Position numbers and translations under genes: made by a program
Shown: one piece after another, positions 10,884 through 33,728 of the stretch
Layout: each line of letters begins with the position of its first letter
Position numbering within the stretch: the stretch's first letter is position 1
The notes under the pieces: model-generated
The model's input: the letters and a program-made list of their open reading frames with translations, nothing else
Databases searched by the model: none
Told to the model about the DNA's origin: nothing
NCBI RefSeq assembly: GCF_001482285.1
Contig: NZ_LOEP01000011.1
Location: 1 to 36,558 of the forward strand
Reading direction: 5' to 3'
Length of the DNA: 36,558 bases
Source: Haloferax sp. Q22
GTDB taxonomy: Archaea; Halobacteriota; Halobacteria; Halobacteriales; Haloferacaceae

Positions 10884-10904
10884 CACCGCCGAGTGACGCC
10901 GTTC

Positions 10905-11033: not shown

Positions 11034-11339
11034 CCAGACGCACTCGCCTGGGGAAGCAGTTCGCAGTAGACTATGTATGGTCTGTTCAATGACTCGAATA
11101 TAATACGTTGCTCGATATATTTTTGATCGAGGGTTGCCGATGTCTTTCCTCTGTATACTGTGACAAATTTCCACTAAGTGTGGTTTAAATTGTCTTACTA
11201 CCGAATTTGTTGAGGTATTTTATTGTGCTACTGTGGTTATCCAAGTCGGGCTCGTCACCGCCGATTCAATTTACTCAGTTGTCGAGAATATATTTTGATC
11301 TGATGAGTCGACACCATAATCCGGGTTCGATCTGGGGAC
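11034..11339. other. Non-coding, AT-rich stretch
   Basis: About 300 bases with lower GC than the neighbours. I see no gene, RNA or clear repeat here. Open frames are short and have no protein-like composition. Confidence 0.5.
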
Positions 11340-11531
11340 TCACCGCACGCCGAGTCGGCGCGCGGCGGTCGCCGACAGATACACGCCGTTCGCGCCGACC
11401 GAGACGGGTTCGTCCGTCACTCGCGAGACGAGCGCCGCGAGGTCGCGCCGGAACGCTTCGTTGTTTGAGTAATGGTGTGGTCCGCCCTCCCGTTGGGTTC
11501 CGTCTGTTGTGTATGTCTTTCTCGACGACAT
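11340..11531 (-). pseudogene. C-terminal fragment of the HTH-type protein found at 13961
   Basis: The last 40 or so codons (EAFRRDLAALVSRVTDEP, then LSATAARRLGVR) match the C-terminus of the complete 259-residue protein encoded at 13961-14740 (TTFRRELAAFLSSLTDEA and LSAAAARRLGVR). Everything upstream of this C-terminal piece is missing. The fragment and the complete gene have the same orientation and bracket the two pilin genes. That arrangement suggests a duplicated HTH-pilin module in which this copy has decayed. Confidence 0.75.
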
Positions 11532-11893
11532 CGTCTTGCACTAGGAGTGAGAGGCGTCGTCGAGAGATCTGACTAACTGCAAACCAGAGTAAGTGTATTA
11601 TCGAATTTGTGGGGAAGGCTGGAATATCGGGCCATCGCCGTATTCTGATTGAGTACCCTTGTCGACCGTCTCGTGGACAGGTCCCGATTCAAGCTTCGTT
11701 TGGACCTGTTTGCCCTCGGCGTTGGGTGCTGTATCCTGTGGTACGAACTACCGGTGGAAGTGGTACATCTTTATCGTGGAGTCTCAATGAGCGAGTGTTT
11801 GCTGGGTCGGCAGGCGAACTTACGTGGTATGGTTGTAACTCAACGAGGAGTCAGTATTCAAAAAACGTTCAAAGGTCGGTCTCTCGAATCGCG
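11532..11893. other. Region downstream of the pilin gene, nothing recognised
   Basis: About 360 bases between the HTH-gene fragment and the pilin stop codon. The open frames on the plus strand here are shadows without family features. No clear terminator hairpin or RNA is seen. Confidence 0.4.
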
Positions 11894-12526
11894 TTACTTG
11901 ACCGTGTACTTCGCGATCGTTGCGGTACTGCCACCACCAGGGGACTCCCAGATCACACGGATGACGTCACCCTCTGCGAGAGCGTGTGCACCGGCAGCGG
12001 TTGCGTCACCATTAGTTGTACGAGGTGCTTGGATCTTGTCTTCTTGAGCAGTTCCTGCTGCGTCCTCATAGTTGAGTTTGGTGATAGAACCGGCGGTAGT
12101 GACTACCTCGTCTCCATCGTCATCGTAGAGCCCCACAGTAACTGAAGAGCCGGCAGAGATCGTGTCAGAGCCAGACCAAAGTGCTGTCGGGTCATCTGCA
12201 CTTGCACCGTTGTCTGCAATACCGTATGCAGGGTGTCCGTTAACCGTGACGCTCACTGTCCCTTCCTCAATGGACGCTCCATTTGAATGAGTGATTTCAA
12301 CCATTATGAGTTCTACAGAGTCAGGGGTCGTGTCTGCATCAGTATACGCCGAATTTGACTGCGAGAATTCGAAACTCGCTTGCGGTGCACTATTTCCAAC
12401 CTGGTCGCCAAGCCCGAGGACGAACGTCCCAATCACGGCCGCTAGAATCACCGTTATTGCGACCATAAGGATGACACCGATCACGGGTGAGACTGCATCT
12501 TCTTCGCGTATGAATTTCTTTATCAT
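11894..12526 (-). CDS. pilA: Type IV pilin (PilA-like)
   Basis: A 210-residue prepilin. The short charged leader ([10 protein letters not shown]) is followed by [15 protein letters not shown] and the rest of the hydrophobic domain, which runs to about residue 41 (VLGLGD). This is the H-domain shared by Haloferax PilA proteins (Pilin_N). PibD-type prepilin peptidase should cut before the AVSPVIG segment. The remainder is a beta-rich, Ser/Thr/Asp-rich head ending [14 protein letters not shown]. It is the second of two tandem pilin genes, 32 bases behind the disrupted one. In H. volcanii a pilin gene (pilA2, from memory) also adjoins agl6. The product would form adhesion pili, which are N-glycosylated in haloarchaea. 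Confidence 0.92.
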
Positions 12527-12558
12527 CTCTATTGTTCTTTGAAAGAATTTATTCGGAG

Positions 12559-13035
12559 TTAGTTCGGCACGGTTGCCTTTGCGATCGTTGCAGTGCTACC
12601 GCCACTAGGCGAGCTCCACGTGAGACGAATTTCGGAGCCCTCGTCGATCTCAAGTGAACCGTCACCACTGGTAACAATGGTGTCGCCAGCAGAGTAGGTC
12701 GTTCCTGTGGTGAGACTGAATGGTGCGTCGGTTAGGTCACCCGAGGCAGTTGTCCCATCCTGCAGAGTGTACGCGAGGCCAAGTTCGTCAACGGAAAGCT
12801 GAGCCCCTCCCTCATGGATGATCTGGAAATCATAGCCACCTGCAGTGGCGTCATCACCAGGGGTAAACTCGAAACTAACCGATGCTTGCGGCGCACTGTT
12901 ACCCACCTAATCGCCAAGCCCGAGGACGAATGTCCCGATGACGGCCGCGAGGATGACCGTGATTGCGACCATCAGAATGACGCCGATGACCGGGCTCACC
13001 GCGGTGTCGTCTTTGAATAGATTTTGAATGTTCAT
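12559..13035 (-). pseudogene. Type IV pilin gene with an in-frame stop after the H-domain
   Basis: Starting at ATG 13035 the frame reads MNIQNLFKDDTAVSPVIG and continues through a hydrophobic domain identical to that of the next pilin, to GLGD. Then a TAG at 12907-12909 stands where the neighbour has Gln. The same frame stays open afterwards, with VGNSAPQAS directly following and the end [17 protein letters not shown], for 115 more codons. A single CAG-to-TAG change explains this. As read, only a 42-residue leader plus H-domain would be made. The intact downstream reading frame indicates that the mutation is recent. Restart at the GTG at 12906 would give a pilin head without an H-domain. Confidence 0.88.
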
Positions 13036-13150
13036 GGTGTTTCACCCGACACGCATCTCTCAGGGATCACATAGCGAGCCACAGCGAGTAGCCACCCTCT
13101 GTTTCCCTCGTATTGCGCGACGTGTCTATTACACTAACCGTCGCGAGAGG

Positions 13151-13160
13151 ATAAATAAGT
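13151..13160 (-). promoter_or_regulatory. TATA box upstream of the pilin pair
   Basis: acttatttat (minus strand) lies about 120 bases before the ATG at 13035, in an otherwise gene-free 288-base stretch (13036-13323). This implies a leader of roughly 90 bases for the pilin mRNA, unusual in a genome where many starts appear leaderless. The rest of this stretch shows no gene. Confidence 0.5.
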
Positions 13161-13323
13161 TTAGCTGAATTCTACGGTTCAGAGAATTACTGCTTCTTTG
13201 GATTAAACAACTGATTAACATGAGTTGATCGACGTGACGACGAGATTCTCTGGACCGAGAGCCAGCTGCTGAACATCAGTTTATTCAGCAATCTTATCAT
13301 GGTTATTCGTATACGGTGAGTCA

Positions 13324-13845
13324 ATGAATCATCCTCGAGACGAGATTTTTGCTCACGGTGCTGTGCATCGCTGTTGTGACAGGAGTGAGTGGACCACTCG
13401 TTCCGGGGATTGACCTGACACCAGTACAGGGCTCACAGGCGGGTAACTTCGAGTCGTTCAATAACCACACAGGTGACCTGGAAGCAACTAGCATCCAGAT
13501 TCCGGAACGGGCTATCGCTTAGAACATGGGGTTCGTGGGTCAGGCATCTACACGACGCGGTTCCCCGCCACGACCGTCGAAATTGAGACCGTCTCTGGTT
13601 CGGCGCTACTAATCTACGGGGTGGATATTCCGTCTCTGGGCTACGGGATACAGTCGACCTACGTCGTGAACCAGACTTCTCCACGAACGCTGAAAATGAC
13701 GCTGCCACAGAGTCAGCTCAAGGCAACAGAGATCTCCCAAGATTCCTACCCGGCAGTTGCAACGGTCTACGTTCGGACAAATGGAACGAAACGGGCACTC
13801 ACCAACAAAACCGTCACCGTCACCGTGAGTGGAGGTGGCCAGTAG
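13324..13845 (+). pseudogene. Decayed gene for a secreted protein
   Basis: Reading in pieces recovers one protein. A hydrophobic signal-like segment (LLTVLCIAVVTGVSGP) is followed by LEATSIQIPERA, then after a shift of one base near 13518 by RLEHGVRGSGIYTTRF and a continuous C-terminal part ending TVTVSGGGQ at 13845. A stop (tag at 13522-13524) ends the first frame, and another shift is needed near the ATG. The product was probably an exported beta-rich protein. Its family is not recognised. It diverges from the pilin genes, so it may have belonged to the same surface system. Confidence 0.6.
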
Positions 13846-13950
13846 ATGTCGTCGTTGACAGACTCAAAGGTGGGGCAAGCGACACCGGCCCGCGACGCCT
13901 CGATTCTCTCAACTGGCTCTAATCGACAGGAGAACATTCTTCGGGCGTGT
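13846..13950 (+). pseudogene. 5' stub of a following gene
   Basis: An ATG directly abuts the stop codon of the decayed secreted-protein gene (tagatg), and the first 30 or so codons (MSSLTDSKVGQATPARDAS) look plausible. After about 13950 the same DNA is the 3' end of the oppositely oriented HTH-type gene. The gene therefore seems cut off at this point, probably by the rearrangement that brought the HTH-pilin module together. No family is recognised. Confidence 0.3.
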
Positions 13951-13960
13951 TCCGATGGCG

Positions 13961-14740
13961 TTACCGAACGCCAAGTCGTCGCGCGGCAGCGGCCGACAGA
14001 AAGACACCGGTCGTCCCGACCGAGACCGCTTCATCAGTAAGCGACGAAAGAAACGCCGCAAGCTCCCGACGAAACGTAGTGCTTCGTTGTTCGATAAGTG
14101 GGGTCGTATCCTTTGACTCGAATTTCGTCCCACGACTCCGTACGTACACCTCTGCGAACTCACGTTTGACCGGCATCGGTGCGTCAGACAGGTAGGAGGG
14201 CAACGAGAGGTCCTTGACACGCACTTTCGCCCCGGTCGGCGCACCGGCCGCAGCGAGGACGCGTCCAAGAACAACGGCATCACGTCGAGGGCGAAGTTCG
14301 GTCGTTCGTTTGGTATCCGTTTCGTGAGACATCCGAACCCCCGTTCCAAGCACGGTGAGTGCCTGTTCGAGTTGGTCTGCTGTCTCATCGTCCACAACGA
14401 ACGACGGTGAGTAGCTTTCCGTGCTAATACTCCCCGTTGCAAAGACCGCTGCGACCAGTATGTTCAGCGCCCGCGCGTGTTCTGATTGAAACGTCTCTGG
14501 AAACCATCCGTTCTCCACAGCAGTCGTCAGCCCACGAACAACATCCGGGATTCTGCCGTTCATCCACTCGCGGACGCGACTCCGTGGGAGGCCGACTGCC
14601 GTTCCGACTGCGGTTGACCCCTTATCGGGGTTCGCTGCGACGTAGTCCATCGTCTCGCGGTACTGCAGGACGTACTCCCACGGGTCATCAACCGGCGTCG
14701 CGTACGTCCGCGCGACTGCTGGCTGCGTCGCAAGCGGCAT
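13961..14740 (-). CDS. HTH protein with possible LAGLIDADG/WhiA-like domain
   Basis: A 259-residue protein. Residues about 35-70 (STAVGTAVGLPRSRVREWMN) look like a helix-turn-helix. Two later segments (FATGSISTESYSPSFVV and LSLPSYLSDAPMPVKREFAEVYVRSRG) recall the paired core of LAGLIDADG/WhiA-like folds, though the acidic catalytic residues of homing endonucleases are not obvious. The C-terminus ends AAARRLGVR. A TATA-like gttatatc (14763-14770) about 27 bases before the ATG indicates a leaderless mRNA. A truncated paralogue lies at 11340-11531 beyond the pilin genes. A role in control or rearrangement of pilin genes is an inference from position only. Confidence 0.65.
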   Translation of the reverse strand: MPLATQPAVARTYATPVDDPWEYVLQYRETMDYVAANPDKGSTAVGTAVGLPRSRVREWMNGRIPDVVRGLTTAVENGWFPETFQSEHARALNILVAAVFATGSISTESYSPSFVVDDETADQLEQALTVLGTGVRMSHETDTKRTTELRPRRDAVVLGRVLAAAGAPTGAKVRVKDLSLPSYLSDAPMPVKREFAEVYVRSRGTKFESKDTTPLIEQRSTTFRRELAAFLSSLTDEAVSVGTTGVFLSAAAARRLGVR

Positions 14741-14762
14741 AGACGTGAGAACGTGTTTCTCC

Positions 14763-14770
14763 GATATAAC
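14763..14770 (-). promoter_or_regulatory. TATA box of the HTH-type gene
   Basis: gttatatc on the minus strand is centred about 26 bases before the ATG at 14740. This is the normal spacing for a leaderless haloarchaeal transcript and supports that start. Confidence 0.55.
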
Positions 14771-14940
14771 TATCTCGATTCAAGACATTCTATTTACCAA
14801 CTATATCGGTACGTGGTCTGCGATGTGCTCGCAACGGACTAGCTGTGCAGTCAGACATTCGTGCTATGCGACGACCTAATTCGAGCTATTTTTGAAAACT
14901 ACGTATGCTGTTCGAGTCTGACTACAGTACGTTCGAGCAA

Positions 14941-15096
14941 TTACCGATTCAGGCGAACGACATCATCACACTCGGGACAGTCCGCGAACACGCCGGTCCC
15001 GCCGTCTTCCGTCTCGAACTCGATTAGCACGTGATACTCGTGAAGCTCCGTCTCGCAGTCCGGACAACGGCCAATCGTCGTCGACTCGTTGGTCAT
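14941..15096 (-). CDS. Small zinc-ribbon protein (51 residues)
   Basis: The protein starts MTNESTTIGRCPDC and ends CPECDDVVRLNR. Two CPxC knuckles (CPDC near residue 11 and CPEC near residue 40) would bind one zinc ion, as in the many small CPxCG-type proteins of haloarchaea. ATG 15096 is chosen because the upstream open frame to 15231 reads like non-coding DNA. Such proteins are often regulators or adaptors, but no partner can be named here. Confidence 0.72.
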   Translation of the reverse strand: MTNESTTIGRCPDCETELHEYHVLIEFETEDGGTGVFADCPECDDVVRLNR

Positions 15097-15491
15097 AGCG
15101 GGAAGTGGGAGTGTACGTGTGCTCGCAACTGTGCTTCTAGTCGCACTTACGATAAGCACGAAAATAATGATTGGTATTGCTTCAATGCGCGGCTGGGTCA
15201 ATGAGCGCCACGAGCTAACCAGAATACTCACGGTGGCAGCAGGAACGTCACAACAACCGACGAGTGTTGAAGAGGTGATCGAGCCACCAAACCTCTCAAG
15301 CCGTACCCGGCTCGTTCCCCTGGTGACTCAATCGAGTGGTGGGGTATCTATGGTTCTCGGGTGCCGATCTGACATCGTCGACCCCAATCATGACACATGT
15401 GGGCATTATCCATAGTAGTTGGGATTCCAACCATTCTCTCCTCTCGGATTGTAGAACATACATATGTTCGTTATACTATGCGGGCGATAGG
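15097..15491. other. No gene recognised
   Basis: About 395 bases between the zinc-ribbon gene and the membrane hydrolase gene. Short open frames occur on both strands but none shows family features or convincing composition. No repeat or RNA was seen. Confidence 0.4.
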
Positions 15492-18025: not shown

Positions 18026-18958
18026 CTATTCGTCGTCGCCGAGGTAGTAGTCGACGCAGGCTTCGAGGCCGTCTTCGAAGCTCCACGTGGGTTCCCACCC
18101 GAGCGCCTTCGTCTTCGTCGCATCGATGGCGTAGCGCTGGTCGTGCCCCGCGCGGTCTTCGACGAACTCGATTTGGTCTTCCGACCCACCCACGGCTTCG
18201 AGAATCTTCTCCGTCGTTTCGAGGTTCGACAGTTCGACGCCGCTGCCGATGTTGTACACCTCACCGATATCGCCCTCACGGAGGACGACATCGAGGGCCG
18301 CACAGTTGTCTTCGACGAAAATCCATTCGCGGACGTTCGAGCCGTCACCGTAGACCGGGAGCGTCTCGCCGTTCGCAGCGCGCTGAATGAACTTCGGAAT
18401 GAGTTTCTCCGGGTGCTGCCGCGGACCGAAGTTGTTGCACGTCCGCGTGATGAGCGTGGGCAGGTCGTGGGTCTCCCGATAGCTCTGGACGAGCAGGTCT
18501 GCACCGGCTTTCGTCGCCGAGTAGGGATTCCGCGGCGCGAGTGGGTCGTCTTCCGTGAACTTCCCTTCGTGAATCTCGCCGTACACCTCGTCAGTCGAAA
18601 TCTGGAGGAACCGGTCGATACCCGCGTCGAGAGCGGCGTCGAGGAGCGTCTGCGTCCCCTGGACGTTCGTCGAGACGAACGGTTCTGCCCCGCCGATGGA
18701 GCGGTCGACGTGCGACTCCGCGGCGAAGTTCACGATGACGTCGGCATCAGCCACGAGGTCGTCAACGAGGTCGCGGTCGCGGATGTCGCCCTCGACGAAC
18801 CGATGGTTCGGGTGGTCGAGGTACCCGGTGAGGTTGTCACGCGACCCGGCGTACGTGAGCGCGTCGAGCGTGACGACGGAATCGTCGCTATTGTCGAGTA
18901 GATACCGAACATAATTCGAACCGATGAATCCGGCACCGCCTGTAACGAGTACGTCCAT
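18026..18958 (-). CDS. agl12: dTDP-glucose 4,6-dehydratase (RmlB/Agl12)
   Basis: A 310-residue extended short-chain dehydrogenase. It has the NAD-binding TGGAGFIG at residues 6-13, the active-site ISTDEVYGE (Thr-Asp-Glu), YSATK with the catalytic Tyr and Lys, and the RTCNNFGPRQ stretch of RmlB enzymes. It converts dTDP-glucose to dTDP-4-keto-6-deoxyglucose, the second step to dTDP-rhamnose. ATG 18958 fits both the conserved N-terminus and a TATA core about 26 bases upstream. It diverges from agl14, and the Nudix gene follows with no gap. The Agl12 name follows the characterised H. volcanii pathway. Confidence 0.94.
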   Translation of the reverse strand: MDVLVTGGAGFIGSNYVRYLLDNSDDSVVTLDALTYAGSRDNLTGYLDHPNHRFVEGDIRDRDLVDDLVADADVIVNFAAESHVDRSIGGAEPFVSTNVQGTQTLLDAALDAGIDRFLQISTDEVYGEIHEGKFTEDDPLAPRNPYSATKAGADLLVQSYRETHDLPTLITRTCNNFGPRQHPEKLIPKFIQRAANGETLPVYGDGSNVREWIFVEDNCAALDVVLREGDIGEVYNIGSGVELSNLETTEKILEAVGGSEDQIEFVEDRAGHDQRYAIDATKTKALGWEPTWSFEDGLEACVDYYLGDDE

Positions 18959-19011: not shown

Positions 19012-19914
19012 ATGTACGCACTCGTCACCGGTGCTAACGGCTTGCTCGGGAGTGTCGTCGTCCGGACGCTCCGCGAGCAGGGCCACGAGGTCGTCGGCGG
19101 CTATCACTCCGAGGAACCTGCCTTCGACTGCCCACTCCACCAAGTCGATATCACAGATACTGAGCGAGTCGTGGAGTTACTCGACGAGTACGACGTTGAT
19201 GTCGTTATCAACTGCGCCGCCTATACTGACGTGGATGGCTGTGAATCAGATTCCGAATTGGCGAACGCCGTGAATGCCGTCGCTCCCAGTACGATTGCGG
19301 GAATCTGTGGCGACCGTGAGATTCCGTTCGTTCATTACTCCACAGATTACGTCTTCGACGGCGAAACAGACTCTTTCTACGAAGAAGCTGACGACACTGC
19401 ACCGATTCAGGAGTACGGCCGCTCGAAGCTTGCGGGTGAACACGCTGTCCGTGAGGTGAATGCTGACGCCCTCATTCTTCGTCTGTCGTTCGTCTACGGC
19501 GCACGTGGCGATACGGGCGACCTCGTCGGCTTCCCCCAGTGGGTCGCCTCGACGCTCGCCGCGGGCGACACCGTCCCGCTGTTCACCGACCAGACGATGA
19601 CGCCCAGTCGGGCCGGCAACGTCGCCACGACGACGCTGGAACTCCTCGATGCCGGTGTGTCGGGGACGTACCACGTGGCTAGTCAGTCGGCCGTCACGCC
19701 TTCCGACTTCGGTGCGGAAATCTGTGAGGTAATTGGTGGCGATCCGTCGCTCATCGAGTCGTCGGTCATGGCCGACCTCGACCGCCCGGCGGCGAGGCCG
19801 CAACGCTCGTGTCTCGATGTGTCGAAGGTAGAAGGCGAACTCGGTCGACCCCAACCGACGTTAGAAGCCGACCTTGAAGCGCTTGAAGCTGCGTTCAGCG
19901 ACTACAGTTCGTAG
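19012..19914 (+). CDS. agl14: dTDP-4-dehydrorhamnose reductase (RmlD/Agl14)
   Basis: A 300-residue protein with the nucleotide-binding TGANGLLG at residues 6-13, INCAAYTDVDGCE, the active-site HYSTDYVFDGE and YGRSKLAGE with the catalytic Tyr and Lys, all typical of RmlD. It reduces dTDP-4-keto-L-rhamnose to dTDP-L-rhamnose, the final step. It is transcribed away from agl12 from what looks like a shared promoter core, and its 3' end overlaps by 13 bases the end of the small zinc-ribbon gene on the other strand. Confidence 0.93.
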   Translation: MYALVTGANGLLGSVVVRTLREQGHEVVGGYHSEEPAFDCPLHQVDITDTERVVELLDEYDVDVVINCAAYTDVDGCESDSELANAVNAVAPSTIAGICGDREIPFVHYSTDYVFDGETDSFYEEADDTAPIQEYGRSKLAGEHAVREVNADALILRLSFVYGARGDTGDLVGFPQWVASTLAAGDTVPLFTDQTMTPSRAGNVATTTLELLDAGVSGTYHVASQSAVTPSDFGAEICEVIGGDPSLIESSVMADLDRPAARPQRSCLDVSKVEGELGRPQPTLEADLEALEAAFSDYSS

Positions 19915-20083: not shown

Positions 20084-21157
20084 TTAGAGTTTCAGTTGGG
20101 AGTTCTCGCCGACGACGAGGCGACGACCCTCCGGGAGGAAGTCGTCCGCGCTGCCGATGTTCGCGCCCTTGCCGAGGAGGCTGTCGACGATGCGCCCGGA
20201 CGTGTTGATGTTCGACTCACCGATGACGACCGAGTTCTCGATGTGAACGCCTTCGAGCGTCGAGTCCGGGCCGACAGCGGTGTACGGGCCGACATAGGTG
20301 CCAGACTTGATGACCGCCCCGTCCGCGATTGAAACCGGTCCACGGACGACTGCGCCGTCTTCGATGGTCGCCGACTCAGCGAGTTCGACGCGGCCATCGA
20401 CGGTTGCATCGTCACCGATGGTCCCCCGCTTTTTGAGCGACTTGTCTTCGAGGACGAGTTGGTTCGCCTCGAGGATGTCTTCGGGCTTGCCCGTGTCTTT
20501 CCACCAGCCTTCGACGACGTGCGAGTCGATTGCGTAGCCGTCTTCGAGGAGTAACTGAATCGCGTCCGTGATTTCGAGTTCGCCACGCCACGAGGGTTCG
20601 AGTTTCTCGATGGCGTCGAAGACCGCGGGCGAGAAGACGTACATTCCGATGAGTGCGAGGTTCGTCGGTGGCTCGTCGGGCTTCTCGATGAGCTGGGTGA
20701 CGTTGCCCTGGTCGTCGACGTCCGCAATCCCGAACTGCTGTGGGTTGTCGACTTCCTGAAGGGCGATGCCTGCACCGAAGTCGCCCGATTCGAAGCTCTC
20801 GACGAGGTCGACGACGCCCTCTTTGAGGATGTTGTCGCCAAGGTACATCACGAAGTCATCGTCGCCGACGAAGTCCTTCGCACAGCCTGCTGCGTGGGCG
20901 AGGCCGAGCGGGTTACCCTGGACGATGTAGGTAATTTCGACGCCGTAGTCGGAGCCGTTGCCGAGGAGGTCCTGGATTTCCTCGCGGCCCTTGTGACCGA
21001 GAATGACGCCGATTTCGGTGATCCCCGCTTCTTTGAGATCCTCGACCGCATATTCGAGGACGGGTTTATTCGCGACCGGAACGAGTTGCTTCGGCCCGGT
21101 GTGAGTAATGGGTCGGAGACGGGAGCCCGTGCCTCCTGAGAGAAGTACGCCTTTCAT
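20084..21157 (-). CDS. agl11: Glucose-1-phosphate thymidylyltransferase (RmlA/Agl11)
   Basis: A 357-residue nucleotidyltransferase. The N-terminal 240 residues carry the NTP-binding signature LSGGTGSRLRPITHTGPKQ, the YLGDNI metal-binding segment and EKPDEPPTNLALIGMY. The C-terminal 110 residues form hexapeptide repeats of a left-handed beta-helix (for example GPVSIADGAVIKSGTYVGPY), as in the long archaeal form of RmlA. It makes dTDP-glucose from dTTP and glucose-1-phosphate. A TATA-like acttatttag at 21185-21194 lies about 30 bases before the ATG, so it has its own promoter rather than depending on agl13. Confidence 0.93.
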   Translation of the reverse strand: MKGVLLSGGTGSRLRPITHTGPKQLVPVANKPVLEYAVEDLKEAGITEIGVILGHKGREEIQDLLGNGSDYGVEITYIVQGNPLGLAHAAGCAKDFVGDDDFVMYLGDNILKEGVVDLVESFESGDFGAGIALQEVDNPQQFGIADVDDQGNVTQLIEKPDEPPTNLALIGMYVFSPAVFDAIEKLEPSWRGELEITDAIQLLLEDGYAIDSHVVEGWWKDTGKPEDILEANQLVLEDKSLKKRGTIGDDATVDGRVELAESATIEDGAVVRGPVSIADGAVIKSGTYVGPYTAVGPDSTLEGVHIENSVVIGESNINTSGRIVDSLLGKGANIGSADDFLPEGRRLVVGENSQLKL

Positions 21158-21220: not shown

Positions 21221-21691
21221 TTAGCCGTGAATCTCCGCGTTCCAGTCGTACGGAATCCGCTCGTCGTCGTACGGAATCCGCTCTTCGTCGGGGTCTTCGT
21301 AGTCGTAGAGGTTCGTCGGATAGTTGATGAGGAGTGATGGCTCGTCGCCGATGGCTTTGAATCCGTGCCAGCAGTCACCCGGGATGCGGATGACCTGCTG
21401 GTTGTGCTCGCCGATGACGAACGTGTCGAGTTCTCCCTGAGTGGGTGAGTCTTCTCGGTCGTCGTAGATGCCCACCGTAATGCGGCCCTTCGGACAGACG
21501 AAGTGGTCGATCTGGCCTTCGAGATGGCGATGCCAAGCCCTGACGACGCCGGGGTACGTCATTGAGTAGTAGGACATCTCCGGGTTGATTTCGTATTCGT
21601 CCCAGTCGCTTCGGAACACTTCGACCAAGTGGCCGCGCTGGTCGGCATTGACTTGGAGGTCGTGGACTTCGACGTCGTGGATGTTTGGCAT
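21221..21691 (-). CDS. agl13: dTDP-4-keto-6-deoxyglucose 3,5-epimerase-like cupin (RmlC/Agl13)
   Basis: A 156-residue RmlC-like cupin. Residues RGHLVEVFRSDW at about 19-30, the TYPGVVRAWHRH metal/His region at about 45-56, GQIDHFVCPKG and the C-terminal VIRIPGDCWHGFKAI correspond to the epimerase core, though it is shorter than bacterial RmlC (about 180 residues). It would epimerise carbons 3 and 5 before reduction by Agl14, which completes the dTDP-rhamnose set. A 21-base tandem duplication near the 3' end repeats ERIPYDD. TATA-like atatag (21717-21722) about 27 bases before the ATG supports this start. Confidence 0.86.
   Translation of the reverse strand: MPNIHDVEVHDLQVNADQRGHLVEVFRSDWDEYEINPEMSYYSMTYPGVVRAWHRHLEGQIDHFVCPKGRITVGIYDDREDSPTQGELDTFVIGEHNQQVIRIPGDCWHGFKAIGDEPSLLINYPTNLYDYEDPDEERIPYDDERIPYDWNAEIHG
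21246..21287. repeat. 21-bp tandem duplication in agl13
   Basis: Two copies of a 21-base unit beginning tcgtacggaatccgctc (21246-21266 and 21267-21287) differ at one base. They add seven residues (ERIPYDD) in frame to the C-terminal tail of the epimerase-like protein. Confidence 0.85.
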
Positions 21692-22004: not shown

Positions 22005-22805
22005 ATGACTGAAAATATAAGCTCTGCACGGGCTGATAATCTTACTGCAATAGTAACTGGCTCAGCTCGCGGAATCGGTGAAGCGATCGCTCGACGACTG
22101 GCTTCAGAAGGTGTGTCTGTTGTTGTAACTGATAAGAACGAATCAGACGGCAAGGCAGTAGCTCAATCAATTAGAGATGCTGGCCGATCTGCAGTTTTTA
22201 TCAAAACCGATTTGCGCTCGCCAGATGAGGTCTCAGCCCTATTCGAGGCAACATTTGAAAGATTTGAATCCATAGACATCCTCGTCAACAACGCTGCTGT
22301 CCATACTTCTGATAGTGTTGGCGATGTGTCCATTGATGAGTGGGATTCTGTTCTCGAAACAGACTTTCGCTCTTACTGGCTTTGTGCGAAGTATGCACAA
22401 GAATATATGGATGAGGGAAGTATAATCAATATCTCCTCAAACCATGCGTTTAGCACGATGCCAGCACATTTTCCGTACAATGCTGTCAAAGCTGGTATCA
22501 ATGGTATGACTCGTTCAATGGCCCTTGATTTCGGTCCTGAGATCCGTGTCAATACCATCAATCCGGGGTGGGTCGCCGTTGAGCGAACGACAGACGAAAT
22601 GGATAATGAAGAGCGCCAACATCTTGAGTCAATTCATCCAATTGGTCGAATTGGTACACCAGAAGACATCGCTGGTACTGTCGCGTTTCTTGCTAGTGAG
22701 GACGCAGCTTTCATCACAGGTGCTAGTCTTCTTGTTGACGGTGGCCGCTCCGCGGTAATGCAAGACGATGTGCTTCCCGATTACCGGGAGTCCCGTGAGC
22801 GTTGA
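22005..22805 (+). CDS. Short-chain dehydrogenase/reductase
   Basis: A 266-residue classical SDR. It has the cofactor motif TGSARGIG (residues 19-26), NNAA of the central strand, and the catalytic Ser (NISSNHAF) with YNAVK (Tyr and Lys), then NTINPGWV. The end TGASLLVDGG is also typical. It would oxidise or reduce a hydroxyl or keto group of a sugar or sugar acid using NAD(P). Its stop codon directly abuts that of the convergent 2-hydroxyacid dehydrogenase gene. Neighbours suggest a part in making a special sugar for the surface glycan. The substrate is unknown. Confidence 0.88.
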   Translation: MTENISSARADNLTAIVTGSARGIGEAIARRLASEGVSVVVTDKNESDGKAVAQSIRDAGRSAVFIKTDLRSPDEVSALFEATFERFESIDILVNNAAVHTSDSVGDVSIDEWDSVLETDFRSYWLCAKYAQEYMDEGSIINISSNHAFSTMPAHFPYNAVKAGINGMTRSMALDFGPEIRVNTINPGWVAVERTTDEMDNEERQHLESIHPIGRIGTPEDIAGTVAFLASEDAAFITGASLLVDGGRSAVMQDDVLPDYRESRER

Positions 22806-23744
22806 TTACTCTTGTTTTAGACCTGTGATGAGGTTTTCCACAGCCCGATCGTGAACCCGGTTTACTGCCTCGGTTGTATTCTGTGCATTATGTGAGCCCA
22901 GGACTACCGAGTCAAAAGTTGTAAGCGGGTCGCTATCTGATAGTGGTTCTTCTTCGAATACATCGAGTGCAGCACCCGCTATCGTGTCTTCGCGTAGTGC
23001 CTTAACTAGTGCATCTTGATCAATGAGTTGCCCTCGTGCTGTATTAATAATGTAGCCGTTCCCGCCAAGTTGTTCTAACTCATCAGCGCCGATCATGTTC
23101 CGCGTCGCCTCGGTAAGCGCACAATTAAGACTGACAACGTCCGAACGGGTGAGAAGTTCTTCCTTACTGACTCGCTTGATCCCTGTCTCCTTTACCAACT
23201 CCTCAGGGAACGGCTCAATATCCGAGCCAAGAACTTCCATTCCGAGAGCATGGGCACGCTGGGCTACTGTTGAGCCGATGTCACCTACGCCAATGACGCC
23301 AAAGGTTTTTCCTGCGAGCGAGGTTCCACGAGGACAGTACCAATCACCGTTCTGGACGGCACTGTCGATCTGGTGAAGTTGCCGAGTAAGCATAATCGTG
23401 TAGCCTACAACTACATCCGCAACCTCGTCGTTGAATGCTCCAGGGGTATTATAAACTTCAACACCGTGCTCCTCTGCGGCCTCGGTGTCGATCCCATCGA
23501 TACCAATTCCCCATTTCGAGATGACTTTCAGCTTTTCTGCCCTTGAAATAACCTGCTCAGTAAATTCATCATCTCCTGCGAGTACACCATCGTACTTATC
23601 AATAATTTCGAGAAGTTCACTCTCTGTGAGCTGCTGGTCAACGTCAGCAATATCGTATACAATATCGCGTGATTGAAACTGATCAGCGTAATCGTTGATC
23701 GAGTCCAGGATAAGTGGACATGATATCAGAACACGTTGGGACAT
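22806..23744 (-). CDS. D-2-hydroxyacid dehydrogenase (phosphoglycerate dehydrogenase-like)
   Basis: A 312-residue protein of the D-isomer 2-hydroxyacid dehydrogenase family. It has the Rossmann motif GVIGVGDIGS, catalytic Arg in NTARGQLID, Glu in DVFEEEPL and His in LGSHNAQNT. It lacks the ACT domain of true SerA and the length is that of the short form. The enzyme would interconvert a 2-keto and a 2-hydroxy acid. Among glycan genes a sugar-acid substrate is more likely than serine synthesis. It is convergent with the SDR gene and follows the GT2 gene at 23799 on the same strand. Confidence 0.87.
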   Translation of the reverse strand: MSQRVLISCPLILDSINDYADQFQSRDIVYDIADVDQQLTESELLEIIDKYDGVLAGDDEFTEQVISRAEKLKVISKWGIGIDGIDTEAAEEHGVEVYNTPGAFNDEVADVVVGYTIMLTRQLHQIDSAVQNGDWYCPRGTSLAGKTFGVIGVGDIGSTVAQRAHALGMEVLGSDIEPFPEELVKETGIKRVSKEELLTRSDVVSLNCALTEATRNMIGADELEQLGGNGYIINTARGQLIDQDALVKALREDTIAGAALDVFEEEPLSDSDPLTTFDSVVLGSHNAQNTTEAVNRVHDRAVENLITGLKQE

Positions 23745-23798
23745 TTCACTCGTGATATATAGTTAGTCTATAGAAAGGTTTGTGATTGCCGAACCGTT

Positions 23799-24845
23799 CT
23801 ACGAGGTTGCGTCCGAGCCCTTCCCTTCGCCAGCAGCACTAATGTTCCCATCTCGTTCTGTGTAGTTGATCTTCTGCGATTCCCCGCGTCTATTTGTTGT
23901 CGTGTCGTTTGATGATTGAGACTCATCCTGGTTGGACGCATTTGACTCGGGGAACGTGTCTCGGTCCGGGTAATAGAACCGTTGCCAGAGTTGTTCTGGA
24001 ATTGGTCCTTCTTTTGAGAACCCACGATATGTACCCCAAAACTGGAGTAAACGAAACTCCGGTATCTCTCGTAGATTTCCTCTTAATTCACCCTTCTGTA
24101 AAGCTGTTTTGTAGTCAGAGAGGATGTTTTTCACAGAGAGGGTTATAAAATCAGATAGAGAGAATGATTGATTTGGCATGATTTGTTTATGAGCGTATGC
24201 TTCCCTACGGTACCGGTTGAATATCTCTTTTGCTGTCTCATCATGGACATGAATTATCTCCGCCTCCGATGCATAGGAAATATCGTATCCATCTTTTTGT
24301 ACCCGCTTGGCCCAGTCAACGTCTTCAAGCCCGGTTAACTGCTCATCGTAAGGATAGTCTTCCCAGATCTCACGGCGAATCGCAGCGTTCGCGTTGTTAC
24401 AGAAAGGATAGTCCTGTCGCTCAATATCTTCATTGGGGAACCACTGCTTGAATATCTGGTTCTCAGCAAAGGTTGTCACTTCGTTTCCCCTCTGTTTCCC
24501 GTAGACTAAGGCAACTTCCTCGTCAAACTTGGCTAGTATTTGTTCCAGCCAATCGCTCCGTGTTGGATAGACATGAGCGCTCGCAATTACGCAGAATTCG
24601 CCCTTAGCCGCCTCACAACCGTAATTAAGGGCACGGCCGAAGGAAAATTCTTCAGGATCAATATATACAATTTCTTCTACGTCGAACTGTTTCGCAATTT
24701 CTATCGTACCGTCAGTAGACCCCGAATCCACAAGGATAACCTCAAAATCCTGCATTGACTGTTTTGATAAACCGTGGAGTAACTTCCCGAGATGGTCGGC
24801 CTCGTTATAACAGCGGATAACGAGCGATGCGCGTGGTGAATCCAT
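23799..24845 (-). CDS. GT2 family glycosyltransferase
   Basis: A 348-residue GT-A enzyme. The start MDSPRASLVIRCYNEADHLG and VILVDSGSTDGT form the nucleotide-binding half. SAHVYPT replaces the usual DxD region, and LEDVDWAKRV is the ED motif of the catalytic base. The last 50 residues are polar and low in complexity (Asn/Ser/Gln/Asp). No membrane helix is seen, so it acts as a soluble or peripheral enzyme at the cytoplasmic face. It probably adds one sugar to the lipid-linked glycan. The donor cannot be told. Confidence 0.87.
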   Translation of the reverse strand: MDSPRASLVIRCYNEADHLGKLLHGLSKQSMQDFEVILVDSGSTDGTIEIAKQFDVEEIVYIDPEEFSFGRALNYGCEAAKGEFCVIASAHVYPTRSDWLEQILAKFDEEVALVYGKQRGNEVTTFAENQIFKQWFPNEDIERQDYPFCNNANAAIRREIWEDYPYDEQLTGLEDVDWAKRVQKDGYDISYASEAEIIHVHDETAKEIFNRYRREAYAHKQIMPNQSFSLSDFITLSVKNILSDYKTALQKGELRGNLREIPEFRLLQFWGTYRGFSKEGPIPEQLWQRFYYPDRDTFPESNASNQDESQSSNDTTTNRRGESQKINYTERDGNISAAGEGKGSDATS

Positions 24846-24954
24846 GGCTAATCAGGTAGATGTTACCTGACTAAATTTATCTTCGGGTTTTGTTTATTCG
24901 GTTATTTCAACGGGATACACAAGTATTATGAAATCAGAAACTGCGCCTACTTGT

Positions 24955-25710
24955 ATGAAAGTCGCCGCAGTAATACCTGCACGGATGGGCTCGTCACGGT
25001 ACCCCGGTAAGCCGCTCTGTGACATTCTGGGCATGAGCATGATTGAACACGTATATCGGCGAACCCGTATGAGTAAATCAGTAGACGAGACATACATTGC
25101 CACCCCAGACGAGGAGATTCGAAAAGAAGCTGAAAAGTTTGGAGGTGATGTGATTATGACAGGGTCGCACACGCGCGCAACCGATCGAGTTGCAGAAGCT
25201 GCCGAAGATCTGGATGCAGAAATAATCGTCGTCATGCAGGGTGATGAACCACTCGTGTACCCAGACATGCTCGACGATGCAATCGCACCAGTGCGTGATG
25301 AGGAGGAGATCAAAGTAACCAACCTTGCGAAACCTATCGCAGACGAAGACGAGTACCCTGATCCAAACAACGTAAAAGTCGTTGTTGATGAGGACTGGAA
25401 CGCTCTGTATTTCTCACGGGCCCCAGTTCCGTATATTCATGAGGGAGAGTACGAGGAGGCACCCGTTTATCATCAGGTATGTGTAATTCCGTTTGAGCGG
25501 GAGTTCTTGTTCGAATTTACGTCAATGGATGAGACAAAATTAGAACAAGTTGAATCGGTCGACATGCTTCGTCTACTTGAGAATGGATATGATGTTCGAT
25601 TAGTAGAAAATGACAGGGAAACATATCCAGTAGATACGCCAGAGGATCATGAGAAAGTAATCGAAATGATGTCTGAGGATGATCTATTTAATAAATATGG
25701 TGGCACCTAG
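24955..25710 (+). CDS. KdsB-like CMP-sugar-acid synthetase (cytidylyltransferase)
   Basis: A 251-residue protein of the 3-deoxy-manno-octulosonate cytidylyltransferase family. The start MKVAAVIPARMGSSRYPGKP, then TGSHTRATDRVAEAA, VVMQGDEPL and the C-terminal YPVDTPEDHEKV match KdsB rather than the SpsF or NeuA groups. It would activate a 3-deoxy-2-keto or similar sugar acid as the CMP derivative. Archaea do not make lipopolysaccharide Kdo, so the natural sugar is probably different. An in-frame ATG at 24928 is an alternative start and may be preferred if the transcript is leaderless. It is divergent from the GT2 gene. No KdsA or KdsC partner is present in the window. Confidence 0.87.
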   Translation: MKVAAVIPARMGSSRYPGKPLCDILGMSMIEHVYRRTRMSKSVDETYIATPDEEIRKEAEKFGGDVIMTGSHTRATDRVAEAAEDLDAEIIVVMQGDEPLVYPDMLDDAIAPVRDEEEIKVTNLAKPIADEDEYPDPNNVKVVVDEDWNALYFSRAPVPYIHEGEYEEAPVYHQVCVIPFEREFLFEFTSMDETKLEQVESVDMLRLLENGYDVRLVENDRETYPVDTPEDHEKVIEMMSEDDLFNKYGGT

Positions 25711-26151
25711 TTTTCTGCGAGCAGATTCGTACAACGTACTTGTGTAGAACATTGTTGGTGTAGAGACATCTTGCGATCTTGTTCTCTGGACTTTCGACGG
25801 GTTTCGCCGTAGAACAGGAAGATGAGCGGCCAAGTGGAGTTGTCTGTTACTGGTCACCCTGTTTTGGATTGCTCACCATCGGCGGCCGACCGCCGTTTAA
25901 GTTCTAACTCAGTCTGTCGACACCGCTGTCATTCCACGCGCCGACCGATACATGCGTGTCGTAAGTCCTTGTGTTATTCCGCAACAAAGACGAATCAGGC
26001 ATCAACCGGCAATACATTTCCGTAGTTCCTGAATCAAACCCTGGCAGATATATCCAGTATATTCCGATTAAATTGGTAATAAGATGTGTCACCGGTCCTC
26101 TAACTATCATGCACCAACAGATTGATTAGCATTTGAATGCTGCCGATAGCT
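25711..26151. other. Intergenic region without recognised gene
   Basis: About 440 bases between the cytidylyltransferase and phosphodiesterase genes. Open frames of 60-70 codons exist on both strands, but their products are unlike known families and the frames do not continue. It may be worn-out coding or IS sequence, but I cannot name any. Confidence 0.4.
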
Positions 26152-27789
26152 ATGGAAACTCTTGTAATTGGGCTCGATGGTGGTGAATGGGATGTTATCG
26201 AACCCATGATTGAAGAAGGACAGCTTCCCCATCTAGCTGATCTCAAAGAATCTGGTGTATCTGGACCACTTGAGTCCATCAGACCGCCCGTTTCCCCACC
26301 TGCATGGAACTCTATTCAGACAGGTATGAATCCTGGGAAACATGGTATTTTCGACTTTAGTGATTTTGATGAGAAGTACCGTCGAACTTCGACCAATGCA
26401 TCTGATCGTTGTGCTGTCCCATTTTGGACAATTCTCAACGACTACGGAACGACAACAGGACTATTCAAAGTTCCATTCACATACCCTCCGGAAGAAGTGG
26501 ATGGATATATTGTCAGCGGGTTTCCAACACCTAATGGTACAGACGATTTTGTCCGACCTATGTCACTCCAAGAAATGATTGGCCCGGCCAAAGATCTCTT
26601 TGAGGATAAATCTCTCTACACCGGCGGTGATCAGGAGAAATTTAAAGAAAACTTGATTAAGGTGGCGGAGTATCAAACCGAGTTGTTCATTGAATTAATT
26701 GAAAGCCACGAAACTGAGTTTGGGATGTCTGTATACGATGGTAGTGACCGTATCCAACATTACTTTTGGAAATATATGGACGAATCCCATCCACGGTACG
26801 AACCTGAGTCTCCACATACTGGTGCGATTGAACAATACTACAAAATTGTAGACGACGGTATCGGCAGAATTCTGGAACGAACAGGCGATGATTGTGATGT
26901 ACTTGTTATTTCTGATCACGGTTTTGGTCCTCTATCGTATGACATTTACATTGACGAATGGTTGGCGCAGGAAGGCTTTCTAACCCGGAATAATCAGAAT
27001 AAGGCCAGACAGACTAGTACTGATGTCGCACTCTTGGCACTAAAGTCTGGGTGGCAATTAGTGAAGCAAGCTGGACTACAAGATACGGTCAAGTCGATCG
27101 TCCCTGCTTCTTGGTTTAAGACCGGCAAATCGCTTGAACATGATTCGCACCGTGGTATTGCTTGGGATGAAACAGTAGCCTTTTTTTCAACCCTATCTGG
27201 ACAAGGTATATTCATCAATCTTGAGGATAGATTCGCCAAAGGTAGAGTAACTGGCGAGGAATACGACAAAGTAATTGAACAGGTTCGTGAGTCGTTACTG
27301 TCGATTCGGCATCCGGAAACGAATGAACAACTTGTCGAAGAGGTCATTCGAAGTGATGAGGCCTACTCCGGTTGGGTTGTCGATAATGCCCCTGACCTAA
27401 TTGTCCGGACGGATCCAGAGTATACTCTAAAAAATGGTTTATCCGATGAGTTGGTTCGTTCTTCAAAGCAGTTTGATCAGGATAGATCCGGTGACCACCG
27501 AAAGAAGGGCATATTCATTGCCTCAGGACCAAGTTTCGATTCAGGCACAATAGAGAATGCAGGAATATTGGATATTGCACCAACATTATTATATTTGCAT
27601 GCATGTCCTATTCCGGAGTCTATTGATGGGGAGGTGTTACACGAAATAATCACAGATGATCTGAAAGAAAATAACCCGATTAACCATACGAGTAAATATG
27701 GTGAATTCAGCGGAGAACGACGAGAATGGAGTGAAAATGAGGAAGAGGCCTTAGAAGAGAGGCTAAGCAATATGGGTTACCTCAATTAA
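26152..27789 (+). CDS. Alkaline-phosphatase-superfamily phosphodiesterase/transferase
   Basis: A 545-residue protein of the type I phosphodiesterase/nucleotide pyrophosphatase group. The first metal-binding Asp is in VIGLDGGEW. The nucleophile region is PPVSPPAWNSIQTG followed by NPGKHGIFDF. VISDHGFG supplies Asp and His, GDHRKKGIFIASGP the third His region, and DIAPTLLYL with GEVL the C-terminal signature. No signal peptide or membrane helix is evident, so it seems cytoplasmic. It ends two bases before the flippase ATG, so the pair is tightly coupled. A role in modifying or releasing a lipid-linked glycan is inferred. ATG 26152 is chosen over 26137 from the family N-terminus. Confidence 0.85.
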   Translation: METLVIGLDGGEWDVIEPMIEEGQLPHLADLKESGVSGPLESIRPPVSPPAWNSIQTGMNPGKHGIFDFSDFDEKYRRTSTNASDRCAVPFWTILNDYGTTTGLFKVPFTYPPEEVDGYIVSGFPTPNGTDDFVRPMSLQEMIGPAKDLFEDKSLYTGGDQEKFKENLIKVAEYQTELFIELIESHETEFGMSVYDGSDRIQHYFWKYMDESHPRYEPESPHTGAIEQYYKIVDDGIGRILERTGDDCDVLVISDHGFGPLSYDIYIDEWLAQEGFLTRNNQNKARQTSTDVALLALKSGWQLVKQAGLQDTVKSIVPASWFKTGKSLEHDSHRGIAWDETVAFFSTLSGQGIFINLEDRFAKGRVTGEEYDKVIEQVRESLLSIRHPETNEQLVEEVIRSDEAYSGWVVDNAPDLIVRTDPEYTLKNGLSDELVRSSKQFDQDRSGDHRKKGIFIASGPSFDSGTIENAGILDIAPTLLYLHACPIPESIDGEVLHEIITDDLKENNPINHTSKYGEFSGERREWSENEEEALEERLSNMGYLN

Positions 27790-27791
27790 AT

Positions 27792-29321
27792 ATGGATAAA
27801 CAGACCGAAGGTGGGGTCTCCGTCCTTGCCACACAAGGTAGCATCACGCTCTTTGGCAATATTTGCGGGAAAGTTTTAGGTTTCGTATTTGCTGCCATTG
27901 CTACCAGACTCGTTGATCCGACAGATTACGGAATCTATACATTAGGCTTGTCTATTGTGATTTTCATCCAAGGATTTGCCAGTCTGAATATTTATCGATC
28001 GGTTGATTATTTCATCCCACAGTTTATTAATGAAAATGAGTACGGGAAAGCCAAGATGGCGCTTCGCAATGTAATTATAATCGGTTTATTGTCATCAATG
28101 GTTGGTTTGGCTATTTTATTATTGAGTGCTTCAACTTTAGCGGATATATTTGATAAACCTCAATTGGCATTCGTGCTTTCAATATTTGCTTTGTTAATCC
28201 CAATTCAGACAATAAACAAAATTCTAATTGCATCATTCAATAGCATTAAAAATATGACTCATAGGGTAATAATGAAGGACATTCTGAATCCATTGAGTCG
28301 GATCATTGCGATAATAATTCTCATCTCCGCTGGATTTGGGATTGTCGGCTTAATTTCTGGATATCTACTCGGAGTGGTATTCTCCGTGTTTATCGGCTTA
28401 ATATTGTTTGTTTATGAAGCAGACTGGTTCACGCATTCAGAGACAGATCAAATATCTAATCGTGATCTGTTGTCATACTCTCTGCCGTTGGTCCTTACAG
28501 GAGCAATATATGCTCTAGTCGGACAAATTGATTACTTTGTAATCGGTTACTACATAGGATCCACAGAGGTTGGTCAATACCAAATCGGATTTATTCTTGC
28601 TTCAAATATCCTTATTGGGCTCCAAGCAATCACACCAGTATTCAAACCAATTATTGCAGAAAACATCCATAATACAAAAATCATTGAGAGTCAGTTCAAA
28701 TTATCAACTCGGTGGGTTACCATCCTCACAATCCCTCCCGCTCTTACACTTGCACTAGCTCCAGATCCCTATCTTTCGATTTTGTTCACAAATCAGTATA
28801 CTGCAGCGAGCGTTGCTGTTGTCCCCCTTTCACTTGGATATCTTATTAACGCATCATTCGGACCAGAGGGGATGGTACTTGAAGGACTTGGACATACCCG
28901 TCTTACCTTATTAAACACATTCGTCCTCGTCAGTACGAACGGGGTTTTGGATCTACTTCTAGTTCCTGAGCTTGGGGTTTTGGGTGCAGGAATTGCAACC
29001 GGTACTGCACTTACAGTTGCTGGGTTGGTTGGGGTTATTGAAATATATTATATTCGGGGGGTCCATCCATACAGCGCTCAATTAATGAGAGTCTGGGTCG
29101 CGATAGCGTTCCCACTTGCTGTGGGTATAGTTATGACTTCCTTCCTCGAAGGACTGTTACTCATCATCACACTTCCGGTATTTACCTTGATCTCATTCAT
29201 CTTAGGGCTACACATAGTTGGTGGGTTTACATCTGAAGATGCAAAAGTTGCTGATCAATTTGACCAGCGAATTGGGTATCCAGTTATCAAGACTCTACTT
29301 ATGATAAGCATGAATAAGTAA
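27792..29321 (+). CDS. Flippase for lipid-linked glycan (Wzx/Agl15-like)
   Basis: A 509-residue polytopic membrane protein of the MOP/polysaccharide-export group, with about 12-14 hydrophobic helices. The N-terminus carries GSITLFGNICGKVLGFV, the typical first-helix pattern of Wzx flippases, followed by DPTDYGIYTLGLS. The later FGPEGMVLEGLGHTRL and GVLGAGIATG also fit. It would move the dolichol-linked oligosaccharide to the outer face, where the oligosaccharyltransferase acts. In H. volcanii agl15 performs this job in the low-salt pathway and lies next to the rhamnose genes. Here it is separated from them by extra genes. Its composition is clearly AT-rich. Confidence 0.9.
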   Translation: MDKQTEGGVSVLATQGSITLFGNICGKVLGFVFAAIATRLVDPTDYGIYTLGLSIVIFIQGFASLNIYRSVDYFIPQFINENEYGKAKMALRNVIIIGLLSSMVGLAILLLSASTLADIFDKPQLAFVLSIFALLIPIQTINKILIASFNSIKNMTHRVIMKDILNPLSRIIAIIILISAGFGIVGLISGYLLGVVFSVFIGLILFVYEADWFTHSETDQISNRDLLSYSLPLVLTGAIYALVGQIDYFVIGYYIGSTEVGQYQIGFILASNILIGLQAITPVFKPIIAENIHNTKIIESQFKLSTRWVTILTIPPALTLALAPDPYLSILFTNQYTAASVAVVPLSLGYLINASFGPEGMVLEGLGHTRLTLLNTFVLVSTNGVLDLLLVPELGVLGAGIATGTALTVAGLVGVIEIYYIRGVHPYSAQLMRVWVAIAFPLAVGIVMTSFLEGLLLIITLPVFTLISFILGLHIVGGFTSEDAKVADQFDQRIGYPVIKTLLMISMNK

Positions 29322-32917: not shown

Positions 32918-32981
32918 GAGAAAATGGTACTGCCTAGTTAAGCCAGTTTGAGGAACGAGCAGGTCGTTGAGTGTGTTTGGG

Positions 32982-33713
32982 ATGAAGCTCGCAGACCTGC
33001 TCAGCGAGTGCTTTGAGATGGTTTAGAAGAAACTTGGGAGTGTGAGCGACACGACGTTCACGAGATCAAAGCTCTCGTCAGCCCATCAGAACGCGAAGCG
33101 TTCTGAGGACGCCCGTAAGGGCGTTCGCTGTCCATCTCCACGCGACCGGATGTTCGCTCAGAGAAACAAAACAAATTCTTCGATATCTCGGCGTTGAACG
33201 CTCTCACCAAGCGGTTTGGCAGTAGGTACATCGGCTTGCTGACAGCGGTCACAACCCGGCTGAGGCGAAGCCGAAGCGGGTTGCGGTCGATGAGACCGCG
33301 TCAAAATCAATGGCGAATGGTCTTGGTTGTACGCCACAATAGACATCGAGACAAAGCTGATTCTTGACGTCGAGTTGTTTGGACGGAATGGTACCTATCC
33401 GGCTGCTGCGTTTCTCCATCGACTCTCGGAGAAACACGATCTCACAGACGCTGTGTTTCTCGTTGATGGATACGGTTATCAGACTTCCCTCTCTCGATTA
33501 GGATTGAGCGGTCGGCTTGACTATGTCGAGCGAAACCTTATCGAAAAGTGGTTTCACACCCTCAAAATGCGAGTCGACCGCTTTCATAATTCGTGGGTGG
33601 ACAGTCACGGAAGCGTCCGCGAGTGGTTCATACAATTCACACAATACTATAATTTTCAACGACTGCATCAAGCACTCGATGGGCGAACGCCAGTTGAGGA
33701 AGTCACTAACTAG
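32982..33713 (+). pseudogene. IS6-family transposase with stops, frameshift and hairpin insertion
   Basis: The frame starts MKLADLLSECFEMV, meets a TAG, continues VHEIKALVSP, is broken by a double hairpin at 33085-33125, and resumes FAVHLHATGCSLRET and LGVERSHQAVWQ. Another TAG follows, then VAVDET. One base is missing near 33300, after which WSWLYATIDIETK to the end GRTPVEEVTN is intact (128 codons open from 33327). The catalytic Asp-Asp-Glu region can be partly followed: VAVDE, VFLVDGYG and NLIEKWFHTLKMR. It is inactive but its second half is well preserved. Confidence 0.85.
33085..33125. repeat. Paired hairpins inside the IS6 transposase
   Basis: A perfect 9-bp stem with a 3-base loop (33085-33093/33097-33105, tcagaacgc, loop gaa) is followed directly by a second stem-loop (33106-33113/33118-33125, loop gtaa, one G-T pair). 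The unit lies between codons for VHEIKALVSP and FAVHLHATG, where family members continue without interruption. It therefore seems to be an insertion of about 30-40 bases. The design matches the unit at 34-81, although the sequence differs. Confidence 0.65.
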
Positions 33714-33728
33714 ACAGTGCCGAGAAAA

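Follow-up and report, generated by a model that had tools for sequence, protein, structure and literature searches.

Introduction

The closest described relatives of the enzyme considered here are KdsB and KpsU, the synthetases that couple 3-deoxy-D-manno-octulosonic acid (Kdo) to cytidine monophosphate (CMP). The enzyme is encoded on contig NZ_LOEP01000011.1 of Haloferax sp. Q22, of which the whole 36,558-nucleotide stretch (the window) was analyzed, next to the genes for a short-chain dehydrogenase/reductase (SDR), a D-2-hydroxyacid dehydrogenase (HADH) and a family 2 glycosyltransferase (GT2). It resembles KdsB and KpsU in its fold, its cytidine triphosphate (CTP) loop, PGKPL, the metal-binding aspartates of QGDEP and VDT, and the FSR motif, but differs in carrying HQVCVIPFER, in belonging to a clade of its own, in the lack of KdsA, KdsC and KdsD, and in its HADH and GT2 neighbors.

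Other known systems share parts of this arrangement. The haloarchaeal legionaminic acid pathway of Halorubrum sp. PV6 likewise provides a CMP-ulosonic acid for a surface glycan; there LegF, a NeuA homolog, receives its substrate from a NeuB-type synthase (PMC6137143), whereas the module enzyme is of the KdsB type with no such synthase adjacent. A haloarchaeal CMP-Kdo operon (loci L017 and L031) also places a KdsB-family enzyme in a glycan cluster, but with the canonical KHIG motif, a complete set of Kdo supply genes, and in genomes other than those that carry the module. A precedent for a hexulosonic acid in a polysaccharide is the Escherichia coli K3 antigen, which contains 4-deoxy-2-hexulosonic acid (Dengler 1988, as cited in PMC10433991); the citing paper gives its genes as unassigned. 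We found no gene link between the K3 acid and the module. The agl and rml glycosylation clusters of Haloferax share the rmlB/D/A/C, GT2 and flippase context, and to our knowledge they carry no KdsB-type gene.

We propose that the four genes probably constitute a transferable module that provides a glycan with one unusual acidic residue: a non-Kdo 2-ulosonic acid would be activated with CMP by the KdsB-type enzyme, made or tailored by the SDR and the HADH, and moved by the GT2. Literature searches returned no description of such a module.

A linked module in seven haloarchaeal genomes

A first-pass annotation of this DNA had placed the SDR, HADH, GT2 and KdsB-type genes together inside a glycan cluster, and this is borne out by Pfam and NCBIfam models, on which the domain assignments of the window proteins rest, by the intact reading frames of the four adjacent genes, and by the surrounding rml, flippase and glycosyltransferase genes. 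Of 391 Halobacteria genomes, 7, which belong to four families, have a KdsB ortholog (62-100% identity), and GT2 orthologs (E<=1e-45) occur in exactly the same seven. Close HADH orthologs (E<=1e-75) were found in five of the 391, all five being KdsB-positive. The odds of drawing the identical seven at random are about 1 in 10^14, an arithmetical figure that ignores genome relatedness. Because this coincidence lies far beyond chance, the SDR, HADH, GT2 and KdsB-type genes are a real linked module, and the objection anticipated by the first-pass annotation, that the genes might not co-occur in other genomes, fails.

The module genomes are scattered over the families, and the 14 other searched species of the host genus lack the module. 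Gene order is kept at L013, in Halobacterium bonnevillei, where the module is divided between two contig ends (L027 and L126), at L028, and at L029 with rearrangement of single genes; it is kept in part at L014 and L030. The divergent order of GT2 and KdsB recurs at L013 and L027, and SDR orthologs adjoin KdsB at L013, L014, L028, L029 and L126. At L126 a second SDR copy (535-1300, + strand), matching in two frames and apparently broken, lies some 3.4 kb away from the intact copy.

The cytidylyltransferase and the question of Kdo

Comparison with orthologs suggests that the KdsB-type protein starts at the ATG at 24955, inside a longer open reading frame that runs 24928-25710. Its closest match in the PDB is KpsU (1gq9, 8e-47). 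It barely passes the TIGR00466 cut-off (Table 1) and reaches 32 bits against a cut-off of 206 with the PseF model; NeuA-type models fit no better than KdsB. In the Aquifex aeolicus enzyme, K19, D95 and D219 serve CTP and two metal ions (PMC3149649), and the corresponding K28, D106 and D236 are conserved in the window enzyme. Of the two substrate-binding motifs of PaKdsB, FSR and RHIGVYAYR (PMC7717453), the first is retained, while HQVCVIPFER (~25471-25500) stands where the second would be expected. Alignment revealed that xQVCxIPF is fixed across a separate clade of KdsB proteins, referred to here as the QVC clade. In a tblastn search of plasmids, the matches listed were all below 40%, and were kdsB where annotated.

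The KdsA model TIGR01362 has no match in the host genome, so the statement of the first-pass annotation that no KdsA is seen holds genome-wide, and none was found in any of the seven module genomes. KdsA (381-390 bits, cut-off 314) does occur in 6 of 391 Halobacteria, the same genomes that contain canonical-type KdsB matches and none of those with a QVC enzyme. A full operon, in which kdsA and kdsD come after a kdsC::kdsB fusion, was confirmed at L017 (7311-10312, - strand) and L031 (9105-12088, + strand), which casts doubt on the general assumption that Kdo is absent from archaea; literature searches for Kdo in archaea returned no paper. KdsA is also borne by the haloarchaea represented by L015, L016, L018 and G332, and the aligned fused haloarchaeal KdsBs have Asn in place of the metal-binding Asp of VDT.

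Most bacterial genomes with a QVC enzyme carry two KdsBs, the second being canonical and higher-scoring. Three KdsA-bearing metagenome-assembled genomes (MAGs; G427, G431 and G435) showed one KdsB only, two Chloroflexota have the QVC copy only and no KdsA over the cut-off, and a planctomycete MAG has neither a second KdsB nor KdsA, but it is small and may be incomplete.

Since KdsA is absent, RHIGVYAYR is replaced and the clade is separate, the window enzyme is, judged from its sequence, not an ordinary CMP-Kdo synthetase; automatic annotation by the NCBI models would name it KdsB or Kdo synthetase, and the evidence speaks otherwise. That name is what favors the reading that ordinary CMP-Kdo is made, with Kdo coming from an undetected supply route, which we consider highly improbable: the host genome has no KdsA, KdsA and the QVC clade never meet in one haloarchaeal genome, the sugar-binding motif is altered, and Kdo-making bacteria mostly keep a separate canonical KdsB. 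Kdo was rejected as the substrate on these grounds.

A glycosyltransferase without DxD

The window GT2 has SAH (residues 89-91, ~24573-24581) at the DxD position, and this tripeptide of the module GT2 aligns to the DxD of chondroitin synthase. It is present in 13 of 13 module GT2s and in 0 of 14 other GT2-like proteins of the fetched loci, a small control set. CMP donors have no diphosphate, and sialyltransferases of the GT-A fold are without the usual motifs; the SAH is compatible with a CMP donor.

Fusion of the GT2 to a zinc-type (alcohol) dehydrogenase domain was detected at L036 (11792-13687), L039, L045, L046 and L049, and in the haloarchaeal L014 (8776-10587) and L030 (17979-19901); in both haloarchaeal fusions the catalytic Cys and His of the dehydrogenase domain are replaced. 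GT2s of the window type have no fused dehydrogenase domain and an SDR gene is present instead, so the SDR may stand in for the fused domain.

The first-pass annotation had named either a GT2 or a GT-B enzyme as the transferase. The adjacent, co-inherited GT2 is the partner, and the GT-B-like gene at 34951 was discarded: the 20-kb ortholog loci contain no ortholog of it close to KdsB, and one 35% relative, in L127, lies beyond that range.

A candidate route to a 2-keto sugar acid

The catalytic S/Y/K residues of the SDR are intact by inspection, and its role is presumed to be oxidation or reduction of a sugar or sugar acid. The HADH, whose catalytic R/E/H residues are conserved, belongs to a module-specific subfamily with the motifs K-W-G-x-G and H-N-A-Q/N, and presumably makes or reduces a 2-keto sugar acid. 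At L029 the place between GT2 and KdsB is taken by a non-orthologous HADH (31%), suggesting from gene content that the module needs HADH activity.

A 2-keto sugar acid would suit every one of the recurring partners: the HADH (aldonate/2-ketoaldonate), a galactonate dehydratase that lies between KdsB and GT2 at L014 (Halobellus; 610 bits against an equivalog cut-off of 311) where HADH is missing, HpcH/HpaI aldolases, PF04199 hydrolases, and at L028 a metallo-beta-lactamase-fold protein with weak likeness to ascorbate-6-phosphate lactonase. We therefore favor a route from SDR through HADH and KdsB to GT2. At its simplest, the SDR would oxidize a sugar towards an aldonate and the HADH would oxidize the aldonate at C2 to a hex-2-ulosonic acid; at related loci, a 2-keto (3-deoxy) acid may instead come from the galactonate dehydratase or from an aldolase of the HpcH type. 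The KdsB-type enzyme would then join the C2 hydroxyl of this non-Kdo 2-keto sugar acid to CMP by two-metal chemistry as in KdsB, and the DxD-less GT2 would move the acid from CMP onto the growing surface glycan. We infer the substrate, the order of the dehydrogenase steps, CMP as the GT2 donor and the final glycan. The first-pass annotation's idea of a linked unit that turns a keto sugar acid other than Kdo into its CMP derivative thus gains support as a probable, predicted activity.

Several observations weigh against this proposal. The HADH family is usually reductive and acts on small keto acids. A strict need for either dehydrogenase next to KdsB is contradicted by L014, which has no HADH, and by L030, near which an SDR was not found. 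The link to galactonate dehydratase comes from one locus, L014, where the gene lies on the opposite strand, and no QVC-clade enzyme with a tested substrate was found. DxD has also been lost in glycosyltransferases that use uridine diphosphate (UDP) sugars, GT14 and prokaryotic GT6 (PMC7185993), so its loss alone is no proof of a CMP donor.

The main rival, which corresponds to the other objection anticipated by the first-pass annotation (a substrate from general metabolism), is that 2-keto-3-deoxygluconate (KDG) or -galactonate is activated straight from the haloarchaeal Entner-Doudoroff pathway, the SDR and HADH tailoring the product or serving another residue. Haloarchaea make KDG in sugar breakdown, L014 does without HADH, and the window itself has a galactonate-dehydratase-family gene (9370-10521, + strand) that is 51% identical to the L014 module copy. 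That gene, however, is part of a sugar-transport operon at a distance of 12 kb, and HADH is the commonest immediate neighbor of the clade and looks needed, given the unrelated HADH in the L029 slot; we hold this alternative to be unlikely.

In an improbable alternative, the product would be a small CMP-linked hydroxy or keto acid outside the sugar acids, for instance one resembling glycerate, and the glycan would be decorated with it. This would agree with the structurally known relatives of the HADH, mostly phosphoglycerate, glyoxylate and hydroxypyruvate enzymes, but KdsB-fold enzymes act via the anomeric hydroxyl of an ulosonic acid, the sugar site retains its FSR motif, and the recurring neighbors are sugar-acid enzymes. 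NeuB was also considered as a supplier and set aside: some bacterial clusters do contain NeuB-like genes, but a dedicated NeuA accompanies them in at least one case (L052).

Bacterial relatives and origin

At 44-54% identity, a genome scan yielded about 20 bacterial enzymes, which mostly carry KQVC(I/V)IPF; the enzymes beyond these are canonical, with KHIGLYAYR. QVC KdsB genes with adjacent HADH and/or GT2 were found in Chloroflexota, Acidobacteriota, Desulfobacterales and Lindowbacteria, often with HADH directly next and then GT2 (L036, L039, L045, L051 and others), and HADH is the commonest immediate neighbor in bacteria and archaea alike. Nearness of HADH alone was rejected as proof of a module, and only immediate adjacency was counted, because many canonical kdsB genes, too, have a 2-hydroxyacid dehydrogenase at a distance of 2-5 kb; at the canonical loci the nearest HADH-like gene is at least 1.6 kb and mostly more than 2 kb away, and never immediately adjacent. 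An HpcH/HpaI aldolase adjoins QVC KdsB at L037, L041, L055 and L062.

In a maximum-likelihood tree the haloarchaeal copies form one group (100/99) nested among the bacterial QVC enzymes, and a 100/99 branch separates the canonical KdsBs. The clade is thus mainly bacterial, and the first-pass description of the pathway as archaeal, like any notion of an archaeal invention, does not stand. GC content falls from 58-62% across the rml genes to 47-49% across the four module genes and 40-44% beyond them. Together, the GC step and the bacterial copies indicate that the module is apparently a horizontally acquired island that starts at the SDR.

More tentatively, haloarchaea and bacteria may share a class of nucleotide sugar not described before: a hex-2-ulosonic or 2-keto-3-deoxy-hexonic acid linked to CMP, which a separate KdsB clade makes from an aldonic acid and a dedicated DxD-less GT2 uses. 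If our main proposal is right, CMP-sugar-acid enzymes of one clade would be paired with a matched glycosyltransferase in several phyla, assays of the nucleotide sugar would have a direct target, and archaeal glycans would gain a second type of CMP-activated acid. The motif pair xQVCxIPF (KdsB) and SAH (GT2) provides a simple search rule for the module.

Two further arrangements were observed among the bacterial loci. A PF04199 cyclase/arylformamidase-like gene, perhaps a lactonase, directly precedes QVC KdsB at L042, L044, L045, L050 and L051. At L062 (Coxiellaceae; 10774-15320, + strand), genes for a QVC KdsB, an HpcH aldolase, a Gfo/Idh/MocA protein, an SDR, a dehydroquinate-synthase-like protein and an HADH stand in a row.

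Setting of the module

From the 109-bp intergenic region, GT2 and then HADH, 54 bp apart, are read leftward and KdsB rightward, and the SDR converges with HADH (Table 1). The left flank consists of rmlC, rmlA, rmlD, rmlB and one GT2, and the right flank of the phosphodiesterase, the flippase, a membrane protein and two more glycosyltransferase-like genes. The rml genes adjoin the module at L029 too, where RmlA is 83% identical.

Table 1. Positions of the module genes and their neighbors in the window.
Feature	Position	Strand	Support	Remark
rmlB	18026-18952	-		dTDP-rhamnose-type; associated context, not module core
rmlD	19012-19914	+		dTDP-rhamnose-type; associated context, not module core
rmlA	20084-21157	-		dTDP-rhamnose-type; associated context, not module core
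rmlC-like	21221-21691	-		dTDP-rhamnose-type; associated context, not module core
SDR dehydrogenase	22005..22805	+	PF13561 215 bits; NF005559 231 bits vs cut-off 215	classical, glucose-1-dehydrogenase/FabG-like
D-2-hydroxyacid dehydrogenase (HADH)	22806..23744	-	PF02826 189 bits	
GT2 glycosyltransferase	23799..24845	-	PF00535 88 bits	
Divergent intergenic region, GT2/KdsB	24846..24954		from gene coordinates	109 bp; presumed promoter region
KdsB-type cytidylyltransferase	24955..25710	+	NF009905 295 bits vs cut-off 255; TIGR00466 156 vs 155.2	
Type I phosphodiesterase/AlkP-superfamily protein	26137..27789	+	PF01663 136 bits	glycan-cluster context
Wzx-type polysaccharide flippase	27792..29321	+	PF13440 96 bits	glycan-cluster context

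Farther out in the window, the galactonate-dehydratase-family gene lies in a sugar ABC-transport region, and two pilin-like proteins are encoded at 11894-12526 and 12559-12906 (- strand), one of them with a typical archaeal pilin N-terminus. A remnant of an IS6-family transposase at ~32920-33720 is 88-92% identical to copies on Haloferax plasmids.

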